Source: Taibaiella sp. (lineage in GTDB: Bacteria; Bacteroidota; Bacteroidia; Chitinophagales; Chitinophagaceae). From it: DNA of 64,000 nt. Position numbers and translations under genes: made by a program. The stretch spans positions 62,001 through 126,000 of the forward strand of contig JACDGL010000005.1 of NCBI GenBank assembly GCA_013815385.1, given 5' to 3'. Shown piece after piece: positions 22,476 to 31,945 of the stretch (within the stretch, counting starts at the first letter, position 1; each line of letters starts with the position of its first letter). The notes beneath the pieces are model-generated. The model saw only the letters and a list, made by a program, of their open reading frames with translations. It had not been told where the DNA came from and made no database searches.

Positions 22476-23237
22476 GTGAAAACCCGGAAGACTACAGTTA
22501 CCATCGTGATCCTAATACTTGTAAATACAAGTACAAGGGCAAACAAAATCTTTGAACATATGTTAAGGGATTTTGGCTCAACACAAAATCTAAATATCAG
22601 TTTTTATGAGTACTCAGATAGGGGAGAAGCATTTTTGTATTTATATAAAAGTGGGGTAAAGTGCGACAGTTTCCATCTTAAACCTGTACAGTACTATGTA
22701 TCAGAAAAGGTATTTGGTGGAAAAAGTTTTTTGTTACTAACATTTAGTAAGCATCCAGGAACTGGAATTACTTATAGTGTTAATTATATTTTTTGCATAA
22801 AAAACAGCAAAATAGTCTGCTCGCTAACCTTGACTAATTATTATTATTCTGTTTGGAACGAAATTACTAGTGATGCAGTGATAGAAGAGGAAATGCAGAT
22901 GCTATCTATTACATCCACTGGCACATTCAATAATATTAGTTTGATGATAAAAGACTCTTCCTATTATACTTCGAATATTCACCCTACAAAAAATCGAAAA
23001 TTTATTAAAAAATATCCGTTATCCTTCAACACTAACTCTTGTGTATTTTATAACGCAGATACTGTATTAGATGGAAAAATTAAGTTCTTAAATGCCCTTG
23101 ATAGTTTTAGTTATTCAAAAAAAATCCATCAACAAAAAATACCAGAAATAAAAATTGATGCTGACTATTACTATTATTTTGATAAAAAATGGATGTGTAG
23201 ATATGATAAGCTCAATGTATTTCTTTACATTCTTTAG
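22476..23237 (+). CDS. Hypothetical secreted protein, A+T-rich
   Basis: A 253-residue protein from a GTG at 22476, 21 bases after the chaperone gene. The N-terminus (MKTRKTTVTIVILILVNTSTRA) looks like a signal peptide. The rest is rich in Tyr, Asn, Ser and Lys with alternating beta-like strands (YYVSEKVFGGKSFLLLTFSK, VNYIFCIKNSKIVCSLTL). No family was recognised. Its base composition is much richer in A+T than the chaperone before it and the aspartokinase after it, which suggests later acquisition. It may be read through from the chaperone promoter. Confidence 0.6.
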   Translation: MKTRKTTVTIVILILVNTSTRANKIFEHMLRDFGSTQNLNISFYEYSDRGEAFLYLYKSGVKCDSFHLKPVQYYVSEKVFGGKSFLLLTFSKHPGTGITYSVNYIFCIKNSKIVCSLTLTNYYYSVWNEITSDAVIEEEMQMLSITSTGTFNNISLMIKDSSYYTSNIHPTKNRKFIKKYPLSFNTNSCVFYNADTVLDGKIKFLNALDSFSYSKKIHQQKIPEIKIDADYYYYFDKKWMCRYDKLNVFLYIL

Positions 23238-23248
23238 GATTTAGAATC

Positions 23249-24514
23249 TTATTTCATTATCACCTGCACGGTTTGCCTGGTCTTTTGCTCCAATAGGATA
23301 TGGCGGCTTTTTGTAAGGTCAAAGAGGACTTCGGGGGTAAAGTGGCGGATGGTAAGCAGGCTTACATTCTCATTGGTAAAAACCTTGTAGTCTTCGCCCA
23401 ACACCTGGAGGAGCTGCTGTACCTTATCATCCTTGTTATCTATACAGGCTACGAAACTGATGGCCGCATTCTGTATCAGGTTCACCTTTACATTGAGCGC
23501 ATGGAAGATGCTGTATAGGCGGCTGAGGTTATCTTCGGTAATAAAAGAAAAGTCGCGCGTAGTTACCTGCAGCAGCACCTGGTCTTTCTTCAGGATGATG
23601 AGCGGCGGATAAAAGATGCTGCTTACCTCACTCTGTATCACAGTGCCCTTTAGGTCCTTATTGAGAAAGCAGCGTACATACAGCGGTATGTTATTGTTCT
23701 GGAGCGGCTTTATGGTTTTAGGGTGTATTACCTGCGCGCCGTAGTAGGCCATTTCTATTACCTCGTGGTAGGTGATGGCTTCTATCTTTACCGTGTTGGG
23801 AAACAGCTTAGGATCCGCATTCTGCAAGCCTTCCACATCCTTCCATATAGTGACGCCCTCGGCACCCAGCATAGCAGCCAGCAGCGCCGCTGTATAATCG
23901 GAGCCTTCGCGGCCCAGGGTAACAGATGTATTATCGGCTGTAGCCCCTATGAACCCCTGCGTTACAATGCTGATGCCCTTATCAAGCAGCTTACCCAACA
24001 CCTGCTTCGCTTGTTGTTCAGAATATTCGAGGTCTACGCGCGCATCGCGGTAGGTATCATCGGTGCGGAGCACATCGCGTATATCCACCCATTCCTGCTG
24101 CAAGCCTTCCTGCTGCAGGTATATAGAGAATAGTTTTGTAGAGCATATTTCGCCGAGGCTTACCACCTGGTCGTAAGAATAATCGAAACGGGCTGCATCA
24201 GCGCCATCTATGGCCCATTGCAACTCGGTGAAGCAAATATTCAGTTCTGCCTGAGCTGTCTTATAATACGTATCATCAAGCAGTTGCCTTGCATAGTCCA
24301 GATGCTCCTGTTCCAGTTGCTTCATCAGCCGCGTAGCTGCATCCTTATCGCCCTGGCAAGCAGCAGTAACTATTTTTTCGAGCGCATTGGTTGTTTTGCC
24401 AATGGCAGATACCACCAATATAACGGGCTGCTTAGCACTGTTCACTATCGGCAAAAGCGCCTTCATACGGTCGGGCGTAGCTATTGAAGCACCACCAAAT
24501 TTATAAACCTGCAT
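23249..24514 (-). CDS. lysC: Aspartate kinase (monofunctional)
   Basis: A 421-residue aspartokinase: the first step of lysine, methionine and threonine synthesis. Visible motifs are the N-terminal VYKFGGASIATPDRM, SLGEICSTKLFSIYL, TLGREGSDYTAALLA, WKDVEGLQNADPKLFPN and AYYGAQVIHPKTIKPLQ. A C-terminal regulatory region of about 130 residues with ACT-like sequence follows (VLLQVTTRDFSFITEDNL, NAAISFVACID), so feedback control is expected. No homoserine dehydrogenase is fused. It is the second gene of an operon with the aminotransferase (39-base gap), and both lie behind the putative leader-peptide attenuator at 25828-25938. The symbol is by function; the paralog class is not certain. Confidence 0.92.
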   Translation of the reverse strand: MQVYKFGGASIATPDRMKALLPIVNSAKQPVILVVSAIGKTTNALEKIVTAACQGDKDAATRLMKQLEQEHLDYARQLLDDTYYKTAQAELNICFTELQWAIDGADAARFDYSYDQVVSLGEICSTKLFSIYLQQEGLQQEWVDIRDVLRTDDTYRDARVDLEYSEQQAKQVLGKLLDKGISIVTQGFIGATADNTSVTLGREGSDYTAALLAAMLGAEGVTIWKDVEGLQNADPKLFPNTVKIEAITYHEVIEMAYYGAQVIHPKTIKPLQNNNIPLYVRCFLNKDLKGTVIQSEVSSIFYPPLIILKKDQVLLQVTTRDFSFITEDNLSRLYSIFHALNVKVNLIQNAAISFVACIDNKDDKVQQLLQVLGEDYKVFTNENVSLLTIRHFTPEVLFDLTKSRHILLEQKTRQTVQVIMK

Positions 24515-24553
24515 AATTTATATGAAAAAATAAAAGAACAATAAAAGTTGTGA

Positions 24554-25810
24554 TCATTTCAGTTTTGCTAAGGCGGCCTCCAGCTTTGCAAGCATCTGGC
24601 CTATCTCTTCTTTTTTGCAAGTACCTACGCTAAGACGATACCAGGGAGATTGCTTATCGGCACCAAATGCATAGAAGGGCACTATAGCCAGCTTTGCCTC
24701 ATTGAGCAGGTAATCGGTAACATCTACCTGGCTTGCGAGTACCCTGTCGCCTGCGTGCTTCCCTTTCAGATCGATCTTAACGGTAAGGTATATTGCTGCC
24801 ATCGGGGTTACGGCATCTACCGCGAAACCCTTATCCCTTAAGGCTATAAAACCATCGTAGATAAGATGCAACCTTTCCTGAAGGCCTGCTTTAAATGTAG
24901 CGAAGAAGGCTGCTATCGCATCGTCCTTGAGCAGGAATTCTGATACCGCTTTCTGCTCTGCCATGGGCGCCCATGCACCAATGTGGCTGAGCAACGCCTT
25001 CATTTTACCCATTACATTGGCCGGCCCGAAGGCCCATCCTACACGCACACCGGTAGCGGCAAATGCTTTTGAGATACCATCTATATAGATGGTGTAATCC
25101 TTCATCTCCGGCCTCAGCGATACGGGATCATGATGCATCGTATTGCCGTAGGTGAGGGCAAAGTACATCTGGTCGAACATCACATACAGCTTCTTTTCGT
25201 TAGGTGCGCGGCGCTTGTTCTCTTCGATTACCAGATCGCAGATAGCTTGCAGTTCCGACTTGTTGAGTGTAGTGCCCGTGGGGTTTTGCGGCGTACAAAG
25301 GCATAGCAGTGCGGCGCCTGCGATGTGTGGCGCAACATCAGCGGCCGCAGGCATAAAATTATTTTCGGGGTAGGCAGGTACCACACAGTGTAGCCCGCCA
25401 TTCATATGCACGTAGTGATTATTATTCCACGACGGAACCGCATAGATCACCTTATCATTTTTGTTAACTATGGTCTTGAATAAAGAATATATAAGCGGAC
25501 GGCCACCGCTGGCTATCAATATTTCATTGGCTGCATACTGGAGGCCTTCCTGCTGTTTTATATAATGCGCAACAGCGTTCCGCAGCTCCAGCAAGCCATC
25601 ACCTGGAGGATAATTTGTATAGCGGTCTTTGTATGCCGCAATGATCCCCTCTTCCAGTTCTTTAGGAATAGGAAATATCTCGGGATCAAAATCTCCAATT
25701 GTATAATTGTAGATCTTCTCCCCATTTTTGATACGGGCATTTATTTCGTTGCCCAATCGCACTATTTCAGACCCTATCAGTGTTTCTGCAAGGTGGCTTA
25801 GCTGGCTCAT
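24554..25810 (-). CDS. Class I/II PLP-dependent aminotransferase
   Basis: A 418-residue aminotransferase. The fold is clear: YTIGDFDPEIFPIP, TNYPPGDGLLELRNAV, ILIASGGRPLIYSLFKTIV, LCTPQNPTGTTLNKSELQ, MFDQMYFALTYG, and the PLP-lysine motif DGISKAFAATGVRVGWAFGP. The C-terminal YRLSVGTCKKEEI supplies the substrate-carboxylate arginine. Substrate specificity is not readable, but an aspartate-aminotransferase-like activity would fit its position directly before aspartokinase. The ATG at 25810 lies 17 bases after the U run of the attenuator, with no other promoter seen between them. Confidence 0.92.
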   Translation of the reverse strand: MSQLSHLAETLIGSEIVRLGNEINARIKNGEKIYNYTIGDFDPEIFPIPKELEEGIIAAYKDRYTNYPPGDGLLELRNAVAHYIKQQEGLQYAANEILIASGGRPLIYSLFKTIVNKNDKVIYAVPSWNNNHYVHMNGGLHCVVPAYPENNFMPAAADVAPHIAGAALLCLCTPQNPTGTTLNKSELQAICDLVIEENKRRAPNEKKLYVMFDQMYFALTYGNTMHHDPVSLRPEMKDYTIYIDGISKAFAATGVRVGWAFGPANVMGKMKALLSHIGAWAPMAEQKAVSEFLLKDDAIAAFFATFKAGLQERLHLIYDGFIALRDKGFAVDAVTPMAAIYLTVKIDLKGKHAGDRVLASQVDVTDYLLNEAKLAIVPFYAFGADKQSPWYRLSVGTCKKEEIGQMLAKLEAALAKLK

Positions 25811-25827
25811 TATCCAATCAATTTACG

Positions 25828-25896
25828 AAAAAAGGCTTACCCTATGGTAAGCCTCTATAAAATATGGTTGTGAACTATATAATAGATGGGCTTACC
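25828..25896 (-). promoter_or_regulatory. Putative transcription attenuator of the aminotransferase-aspartokinase operon
   Basis: Along the minus-strand transcript come segment 1 GGTAAGCC (25896-25889), segment 2 GGCTTACC (25853-25846), segment 3 GGTAAGCC (25841-25834), and then T6 (25833-25828). Segments 2 and 3 make a 9-bp terminator stem with a 4-base loop. Segments 1 and 2 can pair instead, and that stem extends by TCTAT/ATAGA across a 2-base bulge to 13 bp, destroying the terminator. Segment 1 starts at the base after the leader-peptide stop. A further 10-base inverted repeat (25919-25928 with 25873-25882) spans the leader and the spacer. Alternatively, the 2:3 hairpin may simply terminate the upstream OstA-like operon. 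Confidence 0.65.
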
Positions 25897-25938
25897 TTAT
25901 GGCATGCACTTTACCTGTTTATATAGTTGCTTTATCAT
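25897..25938 (-). CDS. Putative attenuator leader peptide, MIKQLYKQVKCMP
   Basis: A 13-codon frame (ATG 25938, TAA ending at 25897) between a TAnnTTTG box and the attenuator hairpins. Three of 13 codons are lysine (positions 3, 7, 10) and Met is repeated at 12, both products of the aspartate pathway that the operon feeds. A ribosome finishing the peptide would sit on segment 1 and let the terminator form; one stalled at the Lys codons would leave segment 1 free for the antiterminator. Translation is inferred, not shown. Confidence 0.55.
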   Translation of the reverse strand: MIKQLYKQVKCMP

Positions 25939-25955
25939 TTTTGCTTAACTGCGGG

Positions 25956-25963
25956 CAAAACTA
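25956..25963 (-). promoter_or_regulatory. -7 box upstream of the leader peptide
   Basis: TAGTTTTG on the minus strand is a perfect TAnnTTTG match, 17 bases before the leader-peptide ATG. It lies between the OstA-like stop codon (25993) and the leader. The -33 element is weak (CTGG near 25983-25980). Confidence 0.5.
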
Positions 25964-25992
25964 ATGAAGAAATTTATTTCCAGAAAAATATT

Positions 25993-27666
25993 TTATTGAA
26001 AAAGCTCTTCCCTGCTCTTAGGTCTTTTTTCTATGAGCCATTTGAACCGGCTGAGGCGGGTGGCGCCAATATCTGCCTGCTCTATGGGGGTCATCGTCTG
26101 GTGTACCTCCTGCTCAAAGAGGATCTTCGATATCTTGCGATCTACAAAGAATACCTTCATGCGCTCGCTCTGCGCCTGGTTGACCCCGAGGTACGCGCCT
26201 GCATCATCCTTTGAGTAATAGATGCTTTCCGCATTAGGCTTTACCAGCATGTAGGTAATATTGTTATTCACGAAATCGCCCCTGAGCGTTTTGCCCTGTA
26301 CCTGGTCGTACATTCCGGAGGCGGGAGGCCCGGAGAGGGAAACGACCAATGCGTTATTCGGCACATAAATCCTTTTCAACTTATTGCTGTCCATTTTCAA
26401 CAGTATGGTGTCGCCGGTTATCTGGCTATTGCGCGACCATGCTACCGGGTTGTACATCATGCGTATCACACTATCGGCCTGGGAGTAGCTGACACTATCG
26501 CAACGCCCCTGCAGGGAATCTGAAAAGATAAGCACGTGGTGATAGCCTATAAAATAGCGCGGACTGGTAGAGTCTGCCACCGTAGTATCGGCCATTGGTA
26601 CGGCATTGAGCTGCCGTTTGTTTTTGCCTTTGTGAATCGTTTCTGAACGCATTTGCTTCAGTCCATTATTCAATAGGGTGTCTTTGCGTTTTGGTACCGG
26701 TGCAGAATAAAATGAATCGGCACGGATAAACAAACTGTCTTTGCCTGTTACCTGTTTTAAAACAGGCTTGATAGTAGCCCATAATACACGGCGGTTGCGG
26801 TAATATTCTGCATAGCCGGAGTATAAGGTTGTGTGCTGGGTAGTATCTATAGCCACTACATTGCCCAGGGCTTTCCCGAAACCAATCGTCTTGTCGTAAT
26901 CGAGTTTATCTGCCTCGAGGTATTGGTCATCATTAATAACAGAAGAGCGGCCTGTAAAATGTGCTATCTGGCGTTTGCTGTCGTAAGTGCCCACGGATGT
27001 GTGCAGTACGGACTTATCGCTGGTAACTACTGAGGGAGAATTGAAAAATGTAACCAGCTTGGTTTCTGTATTAAACCCCATATCGCCCGATGTAGCCTGG
27101 TACTGGGGGTCGCTCACCAGCACATCGCCTGTGAAGCGGGCATCCTTGGTATGGGTATTGTAAGTACCCGCATTGCTGGATACAGTAGTGGTGCTATCCT
27201 GCAGCGTGCCCCCATTGGTGTATACACCTGTTTTTGTGGCTACATTATAGGTCAGTTCCTCGCACCAGAGTTTGCTCTTGCCATCGGTAAGGCTTACGTT
27301 GCCTTTCATGTATGCCATCTTATCGCTGCTGGTATAGCGCATGTAATCGCTCTGCGCCTGTGTGCCATCGGCCTGTGTAATGCGTGCATTGCCAAATGCT
27401 TCTATATTGCTGCCCCGCATATAGGCACTATCGCAATACAGGTTGGTCTCGCCCTGCTGGAACTGCACATCGCCTATAAACTTATCTATCTCACCGCTAT
27501 CGGTCTTTACGTGCACGAACAGTTTTTCATTCTTTATGATAACGGGAACCTTACCTGCTGTATCACTTTTTTTCTGTGCATACGTATCGCTTGCCATGGC
27601 CAGTAAGGCAAAGCAGAACAGGATAGCTAATATGTTTTTAAAATGCTGATGGCAGAAAGAAAGCAA
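25993..27666 (-). CDS. OstA-like protein (LptA/LptD N-terminal-like), lipopolysaccharide transport
   Basis: A 557-residue exported protein. The N-terminus has a hydrophobic segment (ILAILFCFALLAMASDTYAQ) as a signal peptide. The first 250 residues show repeated OstA-type strands: DKFIGDVQFQQGETNLYCDSA, YMKGNVSLTDG, GVYTNGGTLQD, ARFTGDVLVSD and DKLDYDKTIGFGKALGNVVA. This beta-taco fold carries lipid A/LPS across the periplasm in LptA. The C-terminal 250 residues are also strand-rich. It is co-transcribed with the MCE protein 21 bases upstream, which links it to envelope lipid traffic; the specific partner is inferred. Confidence 0.85.
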   Translation of the reverse strand: MLSFCHQHFKNILAILFCFALLAMASDTYAQKKSDTAGKVPVIIKNEKLFVHVKTDSGEIDKFIGDVQFQQGETNLYCDSAYMRGSNIEAFGNARITQADGTQAQSDYMRYTSSDKMAYMKGNVSLTDGKSKLWCEELTYNVATKTGVYTNGGTLQDSTTTVSSNAGTYNTHTKDARFTGDVLVSDPQYQATSGDMGFNTETKLVTFFNSPSVVTSDKSVLHTSVGTYDSKRQIAHFTGRSSVINDDQYLEADKLDYDKTIGFGKALGNVVAIDTTQHTTLYSGYAEYYRNRRVLWATIKPVLKQVTGKDSLFIRADSFYSAPVPKRKDTLLNNGLKQMRSETIHKGKNKRQLNAVPMADTTVADSTSPRYFIGYHHVLIFSDSLQGRCDSVSYSQADSVIRMMYNPVAWSRNSQITGDTILLKMDSNKLKRIYVPNNALVVSLSGPPASGMYDQVQGKTLRGDFVNNNITYMLVKPNAESIYYSKDDAGAYLGVNQAQSERMKVFFVDRKISKILFEQEVHQTMTPIEQADIGATRLSRFKWLIEKRPKSREELFQ

Positions 27667-27687
27667 GGGGGAAATGATTAAAAAAGG

Positions 27688-28635
27688 TTAATTCTTCTTT
27701 TTGCCAAAGATAGTAACGTTTATATAATGGGTAGGATGCGACTTTACATCAACAATAAGGTTGTTAAGCGATGCAAGTGAAGTGTTGAGGTTGTTATAGA
27801 GTTCTTTGTCGTTCACCAATAATCCAAGAGTACCCTGATTGCTGTTTATTTTACCTACTACTGCCTGTAACTGCTTCATTGTTTCTTCCAGCTCTTCAAA
27901 CGATTGCTTTATAGGCGCTTTGTTCAGCTTTTCGGATGCTTCCGTGGCATTGGATATGAAGCGGGTAATATTCTCATTATTAGCAGCAATGTTTGTGGTT
28001 ACCTTATTTACATTACCTACTATCTTGTCTATGGTACCGGTCTCCCCATTAAGCTTTTGTGAGAGTATGGCAATATTATCTGTTGCCACCCTGAGTGATG
28101 CAATGCTCTTTGAAAGGTTTTGCTGCCCCTGGTCGTCCAGTACGCTGTTTACACTCATCAATGTAGTATCCAGCCTTCTTACCATACCCCTTATATCTAT
28201 CAGCAATGGATTAAGCTGTGCAGAAAGGTTATCTACAATACCATGCGCAGCTATCGCGGGCAGGGTAGATCTATTTTCAAGTATCTGTGAGCTATTGCCC
28301 AAAGTGAGTTCTATTACCTTAGCACCGGTTATAAAGTCGGCAGATGCAAGGTTGGCTACCGTACCCTTTGGCAGCAATACATCCTTACTAATGGACAGTG
28401 TGACGCGCACACCCTTATTATCAATAAGCTTTGTACCGGACACCCTACCTACACTTACCCCCCTTATCTGGATGCTGGCTGATGACTGCAATCCCTGTAC
28501 ATCCTCATAAAAACAATAATATTCATTTTCGCCGGAGAAGACATTGAGCCCCTTGAGAAAATAAAACCCAACGAACAATACCGCAACGGAAATACCTACC
28601 AGCAGCCCTATGCGGGCTTCTTTTGATAAACTCAT
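27688..28635 (-). CDS. mlaD: MCE/MlaD-family lipid-transport protein
   Basis: A 315-residue single-pass membrane protein. The transmembrane helix is near residues 9-27 (IGLLVGISVAVLFVGFYFL), followed by the MCE domain (YYCFYEDVQGLQSSASIQIRGVSVGRVSG through about 120) and a long helical tail (SQKLNGETGTIDKIVGNVNK). MCE proteins form hexameric lipid tunnels with an MlaE permease and an MlaF ATPase. Here the MlaE gene is about 7 kb away at 35342 and no ATPase is adjacent. A perfect -7 box TACTTTTG lies at 28672-28665 on the same strand, so this gene heads the operon with the OstA-like protein. Confidence 0.88.
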   Translation of the reverse strand: MSLSKEARIGLLVGISVAVLFVGFYFLKGLNVFSGENEYYCFYEDVQGLQSSASIQIRGVSVGRVSGTKLIDNKGVRVTLSISKDVLLPKGTVANLASADFITGAKVIELTLGNSSQILENRSTLPAIAAHGIVDNLSAQLNPLLIDIRGMVRRLDTTLMSVNSVLDDQGQQNLSKSIASLRVATDNIAILSQKLNGETGTIDKIVGNVNKVTTNIAANNENITRFISNATEASEKLNKAPIKQSFEELEETMKQLQAVVGKINSNQGTLGLLVNDKELYNNLNTSLASLNNLIVDVKSHPTHYINVTIFGKKKN

Positions 28636-28712
28636 ATGTGGGGATAACCCGATTTACTAATCAGCAAAAGTACTAAAATGATGCTTAACTCTTACCCGGT
28701 CTTTATGAAATT

Positions 28713-28740
28713 GTAAAGCCACCCCGAAGGGCGGCTTTAC
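28713..28740 (-). terminator. Terminator-like hairpin after the M43 protease
   Basis: GTAAAGCC (28713-28720) pairs with GGCTTTAC (28733-28740), with extra CCC/GGG pairs inside beside a mismatch. It sits 26 bases beyond the protease stop. No strong T run follows on the minus strand, so it is a weaker candidate. Confidence 0.45.
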
Positions 28741-28765
28741 CTCTCTTTTGTTGTCTGTTAGTCAA

Positions 28766-31700
28766 CTATTTTTTTAATGCAATGCTTATGGTACCAATTT
28801 TACCATCGGTAGCTGTAAGCACTACAAAGTAATTACCATTAGCAAACTGGGATAACTGCAGCGTTTTGCGCGACTGGTCGATCACCACATCGTGCAGCAA
28901 TTGCTGGCCTATGCTGTTATACACATCCACTTTCATATTCACCGTCTCATTGCCCCAATCCAATGTTACTTCTCCACTTGTAGGGTTAGGATATACCTTC
29001 ACCGCATCGAGATTATATGAAGGAACCTTTAGCAGGGATATACCTATTGTATTAGATGGTTTAGAACTACAGCCATTATTTGTAATCTCCGCATAATAGT
29101 ACCCTTGAGCAGGAGGATGAATAGACTGGGTGGTAGCACCCACTACCAGGCCGCCCGGGCCGAACCATTTAAGAGTACCGGGGATATTAGAAACGAGCAT
29201 ATTCCCAATCAATGATATAATAGGCGCAGTAGGCGTAGGCGACAGCACCATATTTATATCCGCAGCAACAGCTGTATCTAGAGAATAACAGCCATTATCT
29301 GACGGGGATACTTTAAAAGTTACGATATCACCATTCTTAAGCCCTGCGGTAGCATATGAAATGCCCGTAGCTGTATAAACACCATTTACAAACCAGGAAT
29401 ATATAGGGGCAGCACCGGTATTAACCGATGAACCTGTGAACTGGATAACAGAATCGAGACAGCCCGGGTTACTACCTACGGTAATAGCTACCGAAGCAGT
29501 AGGTATAACTGGATCACTAACCGTTGCCGTTAATGTATTTGAAGTGTCTACATGGTTAATAATACAGGAATCATTTGCAGTAAGTACACAGTAGATAACA
29601 TCGCCATTGGCTATAGTGCCTGAAATAAATATAGGAGAAGTAGCGCCGAATATAGGCAGGTTATTAACGTACCACTGGAATGAAGGGCTGATACCTGCAT
29701 TCTTGACCGTAGAACTGAATATGACCGCCTTACCCGCACAAGTAGGGAAAGAATCAGCAGCAATACCTATACTATCTATCAGTTTCATGTGATAAATGAA
29801 AATGGTATTGGACGTAGCCCCTGTGGGAGAAGCGCAAGGGGAGCTTGAAGTAAGCCGAAGCCTCACAAAATCACCTGCATTCAATGTAGCGGTATAAGTA
29901 GCACCTGTAGCTACCAGCACACCATTTACATACCACTGTAACAGCGGCGTAGTACCACCATTTGTAGGATAAGCAGTAAAAGTAGTAGCATGACCTGCAC
30001 AACCGGGATTATTACCTGTGGTTAGCGCAATAGATACAGTAGGCGCAAGCGTTGCCACCCTTACGACTGTAATAGTATTGGAACTAGCACTATCGTTACC
30101 GCATGCACCCGGGTAGTAAACCTTTACATAAACTGTAGAGCCATTAGTAATAGTACTGGTACGGAATGAATCTGTAGTAACTCCGTTAGGTGTGCCATTT
30201 ACAAACCACTTGTAAGTAGCGCTGGTAACGCCAGCACTTAAAGTAGACTTAAATGTAAGCGTAGAGCCGATACATGATGGATTGCCACCAGGCGGTAACG
30301 CAATAGATACCGTTCCAGTAGATGCACCCGAACCCATTATCACCAGACTATAATCCTCTGCCTGGCCATATGCCAAAGGCCCGCATACATTTGGTGTGCT
30401 ACTTGCCGCATCGGATATAACGCGCATACGCAGCGGCTGGCAAGTTATTAGAGAAGATAAAGTAGCCGTTGTAGGCAATGTTAATGAAAAAGTGTCTGCT
30501 TCGTAAGCGGAAGATGCCGTGTGGCTATATATCTGCTCAGATGCGCTGAATACACCATCATTATTATAATCGATGTAAACAAGCACTTTTTCTGCAGATG
30601 TGTTACCGGTACGAACCATGAACAAATACTGCTTGCCTGCTACCAGTGTAGCGCCCTGCTTGCAGGTAAGATCGCGATAAACATTTTTACCATCTGTATT
30701 GTAACCTCCTGAAGGATAATCGAGATAAGTATTTACAGTGCTGAATGTGGAATCCGGAGCATCAGTGATACGAACTTCTGTAGGACCCGCATCAAACGAA
30801 TTGACAGGATTTGAAATAGATGGTATACACGTAGTACTATGCGGAGACAGACCCGGCGCAATACTGCCCAGTGAACCTATCAATGTAGTACGCGTATTAT
30901 CATTCGTTAATGTATATAACATCCTGGAGCGCTGGCCCTTTGTAAACCTATCCTGGCAGCTTGAATAATCCATGAAATTATGCTGTGTATTATTATATCC
31001 TGAACCTGTACATGGATTAATACCGGTGGGACAAGTAAAATTTGATTGCTTAATAGGGTCTGTATCACAAACATAGTCTCCTGAGGTAAGGCAGGAACCG
31101 GTAACAGTAGGGCATGTAGTAGGAGTACCATCGGGCCCAAAAACATGAGATAAGCCCATAGAGTGGCCTAATTCATGGGGCAAAGTTACATTAGTAGTAC
31201 CGGCTGTAACTTCTGCAAATACCTGCTGGGCCAGCATCACCACGCCATCATTAGCAGCAGGATTGCCCGGTGGTATATAAGCATAACCCGCTATGTATGA
31301 ACTTGAAGCTGAATAGCCATCGGTGCTGTCTATTTTGTTTACTATCCAAATATTCAGGTATTGACTTACAGGCCACCTGTTAACGTTCTTAACGCTGATC
31401 TCATTAGCACAGGTTACACAGCTACCGGTAAGTTTGATACCCCCATTTGTATAACCTGTAACGCCGGTACCATCATTACGGGTAATACCGGTTGTGCTGC
31501 TACAGTTAGTGTCGCGCTGGGCAAGAATAAATTGAATAGGGATGTAAGCACCACCACTGGCACTATCAGGAAAATGCGCGGAGTAATTGGTTGCATACAC
31601 CTTATTCACGTAAGCTATCATGCTATCTACCTGAACATCAGTAGGATTATAAGCAGAGCCCAGCGTACCCCCTGTATGTATTATATGCACTACCACAGGT

Positions 31701-31945
31701 ATCTGGTATACAACCTGCGTACCGGTAGGCGCAGCTACCGTGCGCGCAAAACGGGAAGTAACCCCCGCATGTGCATTGGCCCATGTAACCCATTTGGAAG
31801 TAAAATCATTCAGCTTACGATTATAAGCGGCAGGGTCGGCTGCTTTAACCGCTGCATTTACATCATCAGTACCACAACGCTGCGCATAGGATGCAGTGCA
31901 TAGGGATAGAATCGCCAGGATTGAAAGCGTAAATTTCCTTATCAT
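28766..31945 (-). CDS. T9SS-exported M43-family zinc metalloprotease with GEVED and Ig-like repeats
   Basis: A 1,059-residue secreted protease. A signal peptide (residues 1-21, ending ASYAQ) precedes a pappalysin-like domain with the extended zinc motif HELGHSMGLSH near residue 258 and a downstream Met turn region (HNFMDYSSC). A GEVED domain follows (YIDYNNDGVFSASEQIY; CGPLAYGQAEDYSLVI). Four Ig-like repeats of about 85 residues come next, each with a GxNPxC start and a W(F/Y)VN core (YKWFVNGTPNG, LQWYVNGVLVA, FQWYVNNLPIF, YSWFVNGVYTA). The C-terminal 70 residues are a type A T9SS sorting domain (VYPNPTSGEV to the end). It should be released or surface-attached after sorting. Confidence 0.92.
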   Translation of the reverse strand: MIRKFTLSILAILSLCTASYAQRCGTDDVNAAVKAADPAAYNRKLNDFTSKWVTWANAHAGVTSRFARTVAAPTGTQVVYQIPVVVHIIHTGGTLGSAYNPTDVQVDSMIAYVNKVYATNYSAHFPDSASGGAYIPIQFILAQRDTNCSSTTGITRNDGTGVTGYTNGGIKLTGSCVTCANEISVKNVNRWPVSQYLNIWIVNKIDSTDGYSASSSYIAGYAYIPPGNPAANDGVVMLAQQVFAEVTAGTTNVTLPHELGHSMGLSHVFGPDGTPTTCPTVTGSCLTSGDYVCDTDPIKQSNFTCPTGINPCTGSGYNNTQHNFMDYSSCQDRFTKGQRSRMLYTLTNDNTRTTLIGSLGSIAPGLSPHSTTCIPSISNPVNSFDAGPTEVRITDAPDSTFSTVNTYLDYPSGGYNTDGKNVYRDLTCKQGATLVAGKQYLFMVRTGNTSAEKVLVYIDYNNDGVFSASEQIYSHTASSAYEADTFSLTLPTTATLSSLITCQPLRMRVISDAASSTPNVCGPLAYGQAEDYSLVIMGSGASTGTVSIALPPGGNPSCIGSTLTFKSTLSAGVTSATYKWFVNGTPNGVTTDSFRTSTITNGSTVYVKVYYPGACGNDSASSNTITVVRVATLAPTVSIALTTGNNPGCAGHATTFTAYPTNGGTTPLLQWYVNGVLVATGATYTATLNAGDFVRLRLTSSSPCASPTGATSNTIFIYHMKLIDSIGIAADSFPTCAGKAVIFSSTVKNAGISPSFQWYVNNLPIFGATSPIFISGTIANGDVIYCVLTANDSCIINHVDTSNTLTATVSDPVIPTASVAITVGSNPGCLDSVIQFTGSSVNTGAAPIYSWFVNGVYTATGISYATAGLKNGDIVTFKVSPSDNGCYSLDTAVAADINMVLSPTPTAPIISLIGNMLVSNIPGTLKWFGPGGLVVGATTQSIHPPAQGYYYAEITNNGCSSKPSNTIGISLLKVPSYNLDAVKVYPNPTSGEVTLDWGNETVNMKVDVYNSIGQQLLHDVVIDQSRKTLQLSQFANGNYFVVLTATDGKIGTISIALKK

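Follow-up and report, generated by a model that had tools for sequence, protein, structure and literature searches.

A predicted leader-peptide attenuator with lysine codons upstream of an aspartokinase operon in Taibaiella sp. and related Chitinophagales

Upstream of an operon for an aminotransferase and an aspartokinase, the window (the whole 64,000-nucleotide stretch of Taibaiella sp. DNA analyzed here) very probably contains a conserved attenuator with lysine codons, built on a scaffold that Chitinophagales use for several amino acids; how it works in cells is inferred. Three features expected of a classic attenuator were found: a conserved short leader with codons of the regulated amino acid, competing protector, antiterminator and terminator pairings (with an equilibrium switch in only six of the 26 lysine-class elements), and a U-run terminator before a gene of that amino acid's pathway. 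The initial annotation had interpreted the element as an attenuator with a lysine-containing leader, and this reading is supported by the recurrence of the element, the conservation of leader and stems, and the match between codons and pathway. Its picture was incomplete rather than wrong, since a protector hairpin and a wider family also exist.

Structure of the element in the window

All parts named in the initial annotation were recovered on the minus strand, letter for letter and position for position. The letters TAGTTTTG (25963-25956) form what we take to be a −7 type promoter box, judged by the Bacteroidota consensus TAnnTTTG. The leader frame MIKQLYKQVKCMP (25897-25938, 13 codons, ATG at 25938, TAA at 25899-25897) carries lysine codons at positions 3, 7 and 10. 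Segment A, GGTAAGCC (25889-25896), lies directly after the leader stop and represents the 5′ arm of the antiterminator. Segment B, GGCTTACC (25846-25853), is common to the antiterminator (A:B) and the terminator (B:C); the loop ATAG separates it from segment C, again GGTAAGCC (25841-25834), which forms an intrinsic terminator with the adjoining T6 (25833-25828). The three segments follow one another in this order (GGTAAGCC, GGCTTACC, GGTAAGCC) at a single place in 64 kb and in none of 100 dinucleotide shuffles. The 146-nt stretch folds at −34.5 kcal/mol compared to −24.2 kcal/mol for shuffles (z −2.98), none of 200 shuffles being as stable. An antiterminator with a 2-base bulge had been proposed and was confirmed, but the proposed 13 bp (8 + 5) were not, as duplex folding gives 8 + 4 bp at −15.2 kcal/mol.

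Two pairings absent from the initial annotation were obtained from the fold. Segment X, ACTATATAA (25927-25919), is located inside the leader codons and is the 5′ arm of an outer protector stem, the 3′ arm of which is segment Y, TTATATAGT (25882-25874), beyond the leader stop. In the inner protector stem, segment P (TGCC, 25904-25901), located shortly ahead of the leader stop, is paired with the letters GGTA in segment A; P is longer in relatives than in the window (TTACC/TTGCC). As predicted by folding, X:Y and P:A complete the classic 1:2, 2:3, 3:4 pairing set.

A sigma-70 scan, which does not cover other promoter types, gave no minus-strand site at the leader. In the 50 nt preceding the leader ATG, the motif TAnnTTYG was present in all 26 lysine-class, 63 of 74 hisG-class and five of eight asd-class elements; in the 50 nt downstream, the respective numbers were 0, 4 and 2. 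The hairpin of the window was not listed by a simple terminator scan, probably because its stem extends into the T-run, as we infer.

The first gene of the operon (24554-25810, minus strand) encodes a class I/II aminotransferase (Pfam PF00155) and the second (23249-24514, minus strand) an aspartokinase (Pfam PF00696; NCBIfam TIGR00657 above cut-off). A 1059-aa protein encoded at 28766-31945 on the minus strand contains HELGHSMGLSHVFG, presumably a metalloprotease-like motif, and a C-terminal stretch that we assume to resemble a type IX secretion signal. The gene upstream of the element on the same strand is OstA/LptA-like. The position of the element 3′ of this gene and a hairpin with T6 that resembles a terminator would also fit the alternative named in the initial annotation, i.e., an intrinsic terminator that merely serves the OstA-like gene, next to a short frame that arose by chance.

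Conservation of the lysine leaders

Gene order offered a test that is independent of any RNA model. The aminotransferase search gave a match in 233 of 294 family genomes, and the best 30 loci were examined (L002, L007-L035). OstA, aminotransferase and aspartokinase were found together in 11 of these best 30 loci, the window included, and the element was present in ten of the 11; L009 has kept the gene order and lacks the element. Among the remaining 19 loci, eight were read upstream, all without the element, and in none of the 19 was there a match above 24 bits to R1, a covariance model built from lysine leaders. In an aspartokinase scan of named genomes, from which the best 80 loci were taken, the 18 closest loci (L036-L053) included six with the element (L036, L037, L041, L043, L044 and L047), L037 and L041 being repeats of L013 and L019. 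In the other 12 the element was absent or the upstream sequence incomplete (L046 and L053 end too soon upstream). No R1 match above 19 bits was detected in L054-L115.

In three loci (L036, L134, L145) the element precedes the aspartokinase gene without an aminotransferase gene. At three loci from Taibaiella species (lutea, chishuiensis and koreensis; L043, L044 and L047) it is present with no upstream match to OstA. Because the element occurs without the aminotransferase (L036) and without an OstA match (the three Taibaiella species), it is assigned, as far as sequence comparison can tell, to the aspartokinase operon of one group and not to OstA. The plain OstA terminator was rejected on the same grounds, the element standing at loci without an OstA match and before other genes; the conservation of lysine leaders together with X:Y also speaks against it, and we regard it as very unlikely.

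The initial annotation had named the lack of a conserved leader frame or of paired segments in close relatives as a refutation of the attenuator; both are conserved. Alignment A4 comprises 14 leaders, all from loci carrying the element. Most lysine leader peptides contain K-x-[YH]-K followed by K-[RCH], as in MIKQLYKQVKCMP (window), MTRKLHKNMKRLAKR (L036) and MTRHKVYKNMKRFTNPR (L047). Segment B is identical in 13 of the 14 leaders and differs at the first base in the remaining one. The terminator stem shows changes on both sides at two positions. Two-sided changes also occur in the three outer pairs of X:Y, which hold in only 59% of cells, and the six inner pairs hold in 95%. Two of five column-count measures gave weak signals: five pairs with two-sided changes against 2.8 in shuffles (reached by 27 of 500) and 15 further pair types against 13.9 (reached by 146 of 500). 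RNAalifold recovered only the terminator from A4. MAFFT places P, and in some rows X:Y, out of register, so that P:A and X:Y rest on single folds, column counts and comparisons of own with swapped arms. X:Y, P:A and B:C were seen together in single folds of five relatives. Across the lysine class (n = 26), X:Y reached −12.9 kcal/mol with its own arms, −8.8 with arms swapped within the class and −6.4 with shuffled ones. When the first bases of X and everything before them are removed, the window sequence folds into A:B instead.

Related leaders before other amino acid genes

With R1, matches at E ≤ 0.01 were obtained in 302 of 394 family genomes. This is an upper count that includes false positives, because three of five order-level genomes outside the family (G501, G557, G593) gave only terminator-like matches (E 7e-6 to 8e-5). 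The 115 oriented elements examined consist of 30 of these R1 matches, 80 further listed ones, drawn from the top of the listing with several skipped, and five weak matches in the window's own genome. The first downstream gene encodes HisG in 75 cases, an aminotransferase in 21, Asd in nine, an aspartokinase in three and none of these in seven, namely the five weak own-genome matches, L191 before lysA and L182 before a GNAT gene. The five own-genome matches examined (L146-L150) resemble terminators that lack such a leader and were rejected. Another 21 R1 matches comprised eight before hisG, eight before asd, one before lysA, one before trpE and three terminators only. The HisG and Asd proteins and the complete LysA of L253 scored above the NCBIfam cut-offs; the LysA of L191 and the trpE product are partial and fell below them, the latter with Pfam support.

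In the genome of the window (G000), asd and lysA, matched by the Asd and LysA queries, lack the element. The HisG search was empty there; without a positive control this shows nothing, and the genome is possibly devoid of histidine biosynthesis. A Lys-rich leader of the same kind precedes a GNAT acetyltransferase gene (Pfam PF00583) of unknown role in G096 (L182/L280), which might be a further lysine-linked function.

The codons of the leaders follow the downstream pathway. HisG leaders contain runs of His (MIQNLHIHHHHLTQW...), Asd leaders combine Lys and Thr (MKMNKHTKRTKKHS), the leaders at the two lysA loci are rich in Lys (MISIPTAKQIKKIKLYPER and, in another family, MMIYKHKSSKRFLPKW), and the trpE leader, found in one genome (G491), contains WWW (MKNNNTIQAWWWNLPQ). 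Per leader, 3.85 Lys and 0.42 His were counted in the lysine class (26 leaders) compared to 0.70 Lys and 4.92 His in the hisG class (74 leaders). At least three Lys occur in 23 of 24 distinct lysine-class peptides versus one of 72 hisG-class peptides. The His runs cannot be ascribed to the search, for which a model trained on Lys leaders (R1) was used; the choice of matches by likeness to lysine leaders favors similarity between lysine and histidine elements, but neither the hisG context nor His codons. The class statistics exclude L146-L150, elements without a called leader (one asd, one hisG), the 21 further matches and L151, and count related genomes as separate rows. Leaders were called as the longest frame starting with ATG; some of them came out too long or misread (L138, L143, L197) and were kept in the counts. 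Among the asd elements of Chitinophagaceae, L201, L211, L215, L266, L268 and others have leaders rich in Lys and Thr (KHTKRTKK) on the same scaffold with altered stem letters.

Lysine as the signal is supported by the lysine leaders of the two lysA loci and by the use of the same scaffold with His before hisG (74 leaders) and with Trp before one trpE. A true attenuator might nevertheless respond to something other than lysine alone, be it arginine (KR motif), several amino acids or the general speed of translation; Arg is the second most common residue (11.4%) in aminotransferase-class leaders, and the asd leaders join Lys to Thr. Against such a mixed signal, Lys occurs two to five times in every lysine-class leader and is abundant in both lysA leaders, and its codons stop at a structural limit given with the simulated stalls below. 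We consider it unlikely and retain lysine as the signal.

Covariation of the three segments, which had been suggested as a check, was found for B:C (two-sided changes) and, between classes, for A:B, but A:B was uninformative within the lysine class. There, own pairs are hardly better than swapped ones (−12.6 vs −12.4 kcal/mol), and because A is near-invariant, covariation cannot be judged; in Taibaiella, A:B contains a mismatch. Typical Asd elements have altered letters in all four of P, A, B and C together (TTCC, GGAAGG, GGCCTTCC, GGAAGGCC). The Asd leader region pairs at −13.0 kcal/mol with its own B, at −7.2 with lysine-class B, at −5.9 with his-class B and at −6.1 with shuffled B. Conversely, Asd B reached −8.8 kcal/mol with the lysine-class and −7.8 with the his-class region, for which the values were −12.6 and −12.1 with their own B and −6.9 each with shuffled B. 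The leader regions and B segments of the lysine and his classes are interchangeable, own partners being hardly better than swapped ones within a class. The change between classes, inferred from these predicted duplex energies, is the main evidence for A:B. P:A likewise rests on a comparison between classes and is weak in the asd class (own −4.2, shuffled −2.5).

When the lysine leader L117, which is the element found at L036, is aligned end to end with the his leader L138, 90 of 128 columns are identical, 25 differ and 13 are gap positions; their peptides are MTRKLHKNMKRLAKR and, read from an inner ATG, MTVILHIHHHHLAKR. The pair scores 91, all lysine-his pairs have a mean of 35.9, and 2000 comparisons in which one partner was shuffled have a mean of 7.8 and a maximum of 39. 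Homology with a codon swap appears to be the simplest reading for L117 and L138, and the alignment suggests a specificity switch between lysine and histidine by codon replacement; its direction is unknown and there is no tree. We lean towards one ancestral Chitinophagales scaffold that has been reused by codon swaps in a fixed leader stretch (His for hisG, Lys for aspartokinase and lysA, Lys/Thr for asd, perhaps Trp for trpE), in which case the lysine attenuator of the window would have arisen when specificity changed, the his version being its sister or its source. For trpE, the evidence comes from a single genome.

Simulated ribosome stalls, proposed mechanism and known systems

The ribosome was modeled as unpaired bases from −14 to +14 nt of the first base of the A-site codon, an assumed footprint. 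In the full-length fold of the window, the probability of the terminator was 0.00-0.09 with the ribosome at codons 2-10 and 0.98-1.00 from codon 11 to the stop; the switch point coincides with the last Lys codon (0.08 at codon 10, 0.98 at codon 11). Full-length folds with a terminator probability below 0.5 at any target codon were obtained for six of 26 lysine-class elements (window included), 12 of 74 his-class and four of eight asd-class elements. With an equilibrium switch in so few elements, the model needs co-transcriptional order, and because equilibrium folding failed as a switch test for most of them, RNA ending after B was used. Under this condition, the mean P(A:B) at target codons, at other codons and at the stop was 0.86, 0.60 and 0.34 for the lysine class, 0.89, 0.51 and 0.24 for the his class and 0.86, 0.64 and 0.23 for the asd class. 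In the three classes, P(A:B) changed from >0.5 at the best target codon to <0.5 at the stop in 20 of 26, 57 of 74 and six of eight elements, respectively. In the window, P(A:B) was 1.00 at codons 2-10, dropped to 0.60 at codon 11 and was still 0.45 with the ribosome at the stop. Regulatory codons are confined accordingly: Lys accounts for 96 of 295 codons up to the last permissive codon and for four of 137 beyond it, His in the his class for 347 of 816 and 17 of 457, and Lys/Thr in the asd class for 55 of 109 and two of 26. Without a ribosome, P(A:B) in RNA ending at B was 0.67 in the lysine class (window 1.00), 0.37 in the his class and 0.78 in the asd class. The full-length fold without a ribosome gave the terminator (window 1.00), so that the untranslated state is unsettled.

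With high confidence, we interpret the element as a ribosome-mediated transcription attenuator that senses lysine via charged lysyl-tRNA, although no expression, term-seq or ribosome data are available. The RNA would begin a short distance past the −7 box, and ribosomes would translate the 13-codon leader. With plentiful lysine, the ribosome is expected to reach the stop and cover A, so that B is left to pair with C and the polymerase terminates at T6. When lysine is scarce, the ribosome would stall at one of the Lys codons (3, 7 or 10), where it would sit on the protector arms X/P and leave A free; A would pair with B once B is made and let the polymerase enter the aminotransferase and aspartokinase genes. 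X:Y and P:A would serve as protector and possibly as a polymerase pause hairpin. Whereas anatomy, conservation, covariation, the match of codons to pathway and the simulated stall positions were observed, the order of events, the tRNA signal and a change of termination in cells are inferred.

Conserved structure upstream of biosynthetic genes could also indicate a riboswitch, or a site in the RNA that a protein binds, with an incidental frame. Rfam gave no credible match in positions 23000-29000 of the window; His_leader, Trp_leader, Thr_leader and Bacteroid-trp had no above-threshold match there or in 10 relatives, and neither the lysine riboswitch (RF00168) nor a T-box matched upstream of aspartokinase in the window or 10 relatives. 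A riboswitch or T-box was rejected for want of such a covariance-model match. Codon identity that follows the downstream pathway on one scaffold is not predicted by riboswitch or protein models, which we regard as extremely unlikely here, and the attenuator remains the preferred interpretation.

The lysine riboswitch senses free lysine via an aptamer, and T-boxes also control lysine genes. Like the element of the window, the lysine riboswitch before lysC represents RNA control of aspartokinase, but it was not found in the window. The lysC gene is associated with a lysine riboswitch (PMC2659441) and lysine genes are controlled by the L-box riboswitch (PMC1262725). In the literature searched, which did not include subscription papers, we found no description of a leader-peptide attenuator for lysine, nor of one upstream of aspartokinase in Bacteroidota. 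A lysine leader-peptide attenuator would fill a gap among attenuator specificities and provide a testable model for Bacteroidota; as his and lys leaders from the same family can be aligned over their full length, one can test directly whether replacing codons alters the specificity. Repeated emergence of leader peptides has been suggested because leaders of Firmicutes and Proteobacteria lack similarity (PMC2965389).

The thr operon leader contains threonine and isoleucine codons. Like the window, the thr attenuator of gamma-proteobacteria (Thr_leader RF00506; thrA encodes aspartokinase I/homoserine dehydrogenase) precedes an aspartokinase gene, but it does not match the window. PMC2659441 places Thr_leader before thrA, i.e., a leader-peptide attenuator before an aspartokinase gene is known. 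Within Bacteroidota, short frames like leader peptides were described for Bacteroides (PMC7366714). For Flavobacterium psychrophilum, which belongs to the same phylum as the window, PMC9723704 gives clues to leader-peptide attenuation before amino acid operons and conserved structured 5′ elements including hisG and pheA; the words "lysine" and "aspartokinase" do not occur in its main text. Bacteroid-trp RNA (RF01692), which Table 1 of PMC2864571 gives for Bacteroidetes, is a leader RNA before trp genes in Bacteroidota. It is resembled below threshold by the trpE element with the WWW leader (L260:101-215, G491; Bacteroid-trp 27.6 bits, gathering threshold 49; Trp_leader 32.5 of 41 bits), which lies on a similar scaffold. 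Bacteroid-trp is restricted to tryptophan, and it is matched neither by the window nor by any of 10 other elements (lysine, his, asd and related ones).

Enterobacterial His and Trp attenuators consist of a leader peptide with regulatory codons, a protector (1:2), an antiterminator (2:3) and a terminator (3:4). The window differs from His_leader (RF00514) and Trp_leader (RF00513) in its lysine codons, the aspartokinase pathway, a protector in two parts (X:Y outside, P:A inside) and the lack of a match, but shares with them the leader peptide and the 1:2, 2:3, 3:4 layout.
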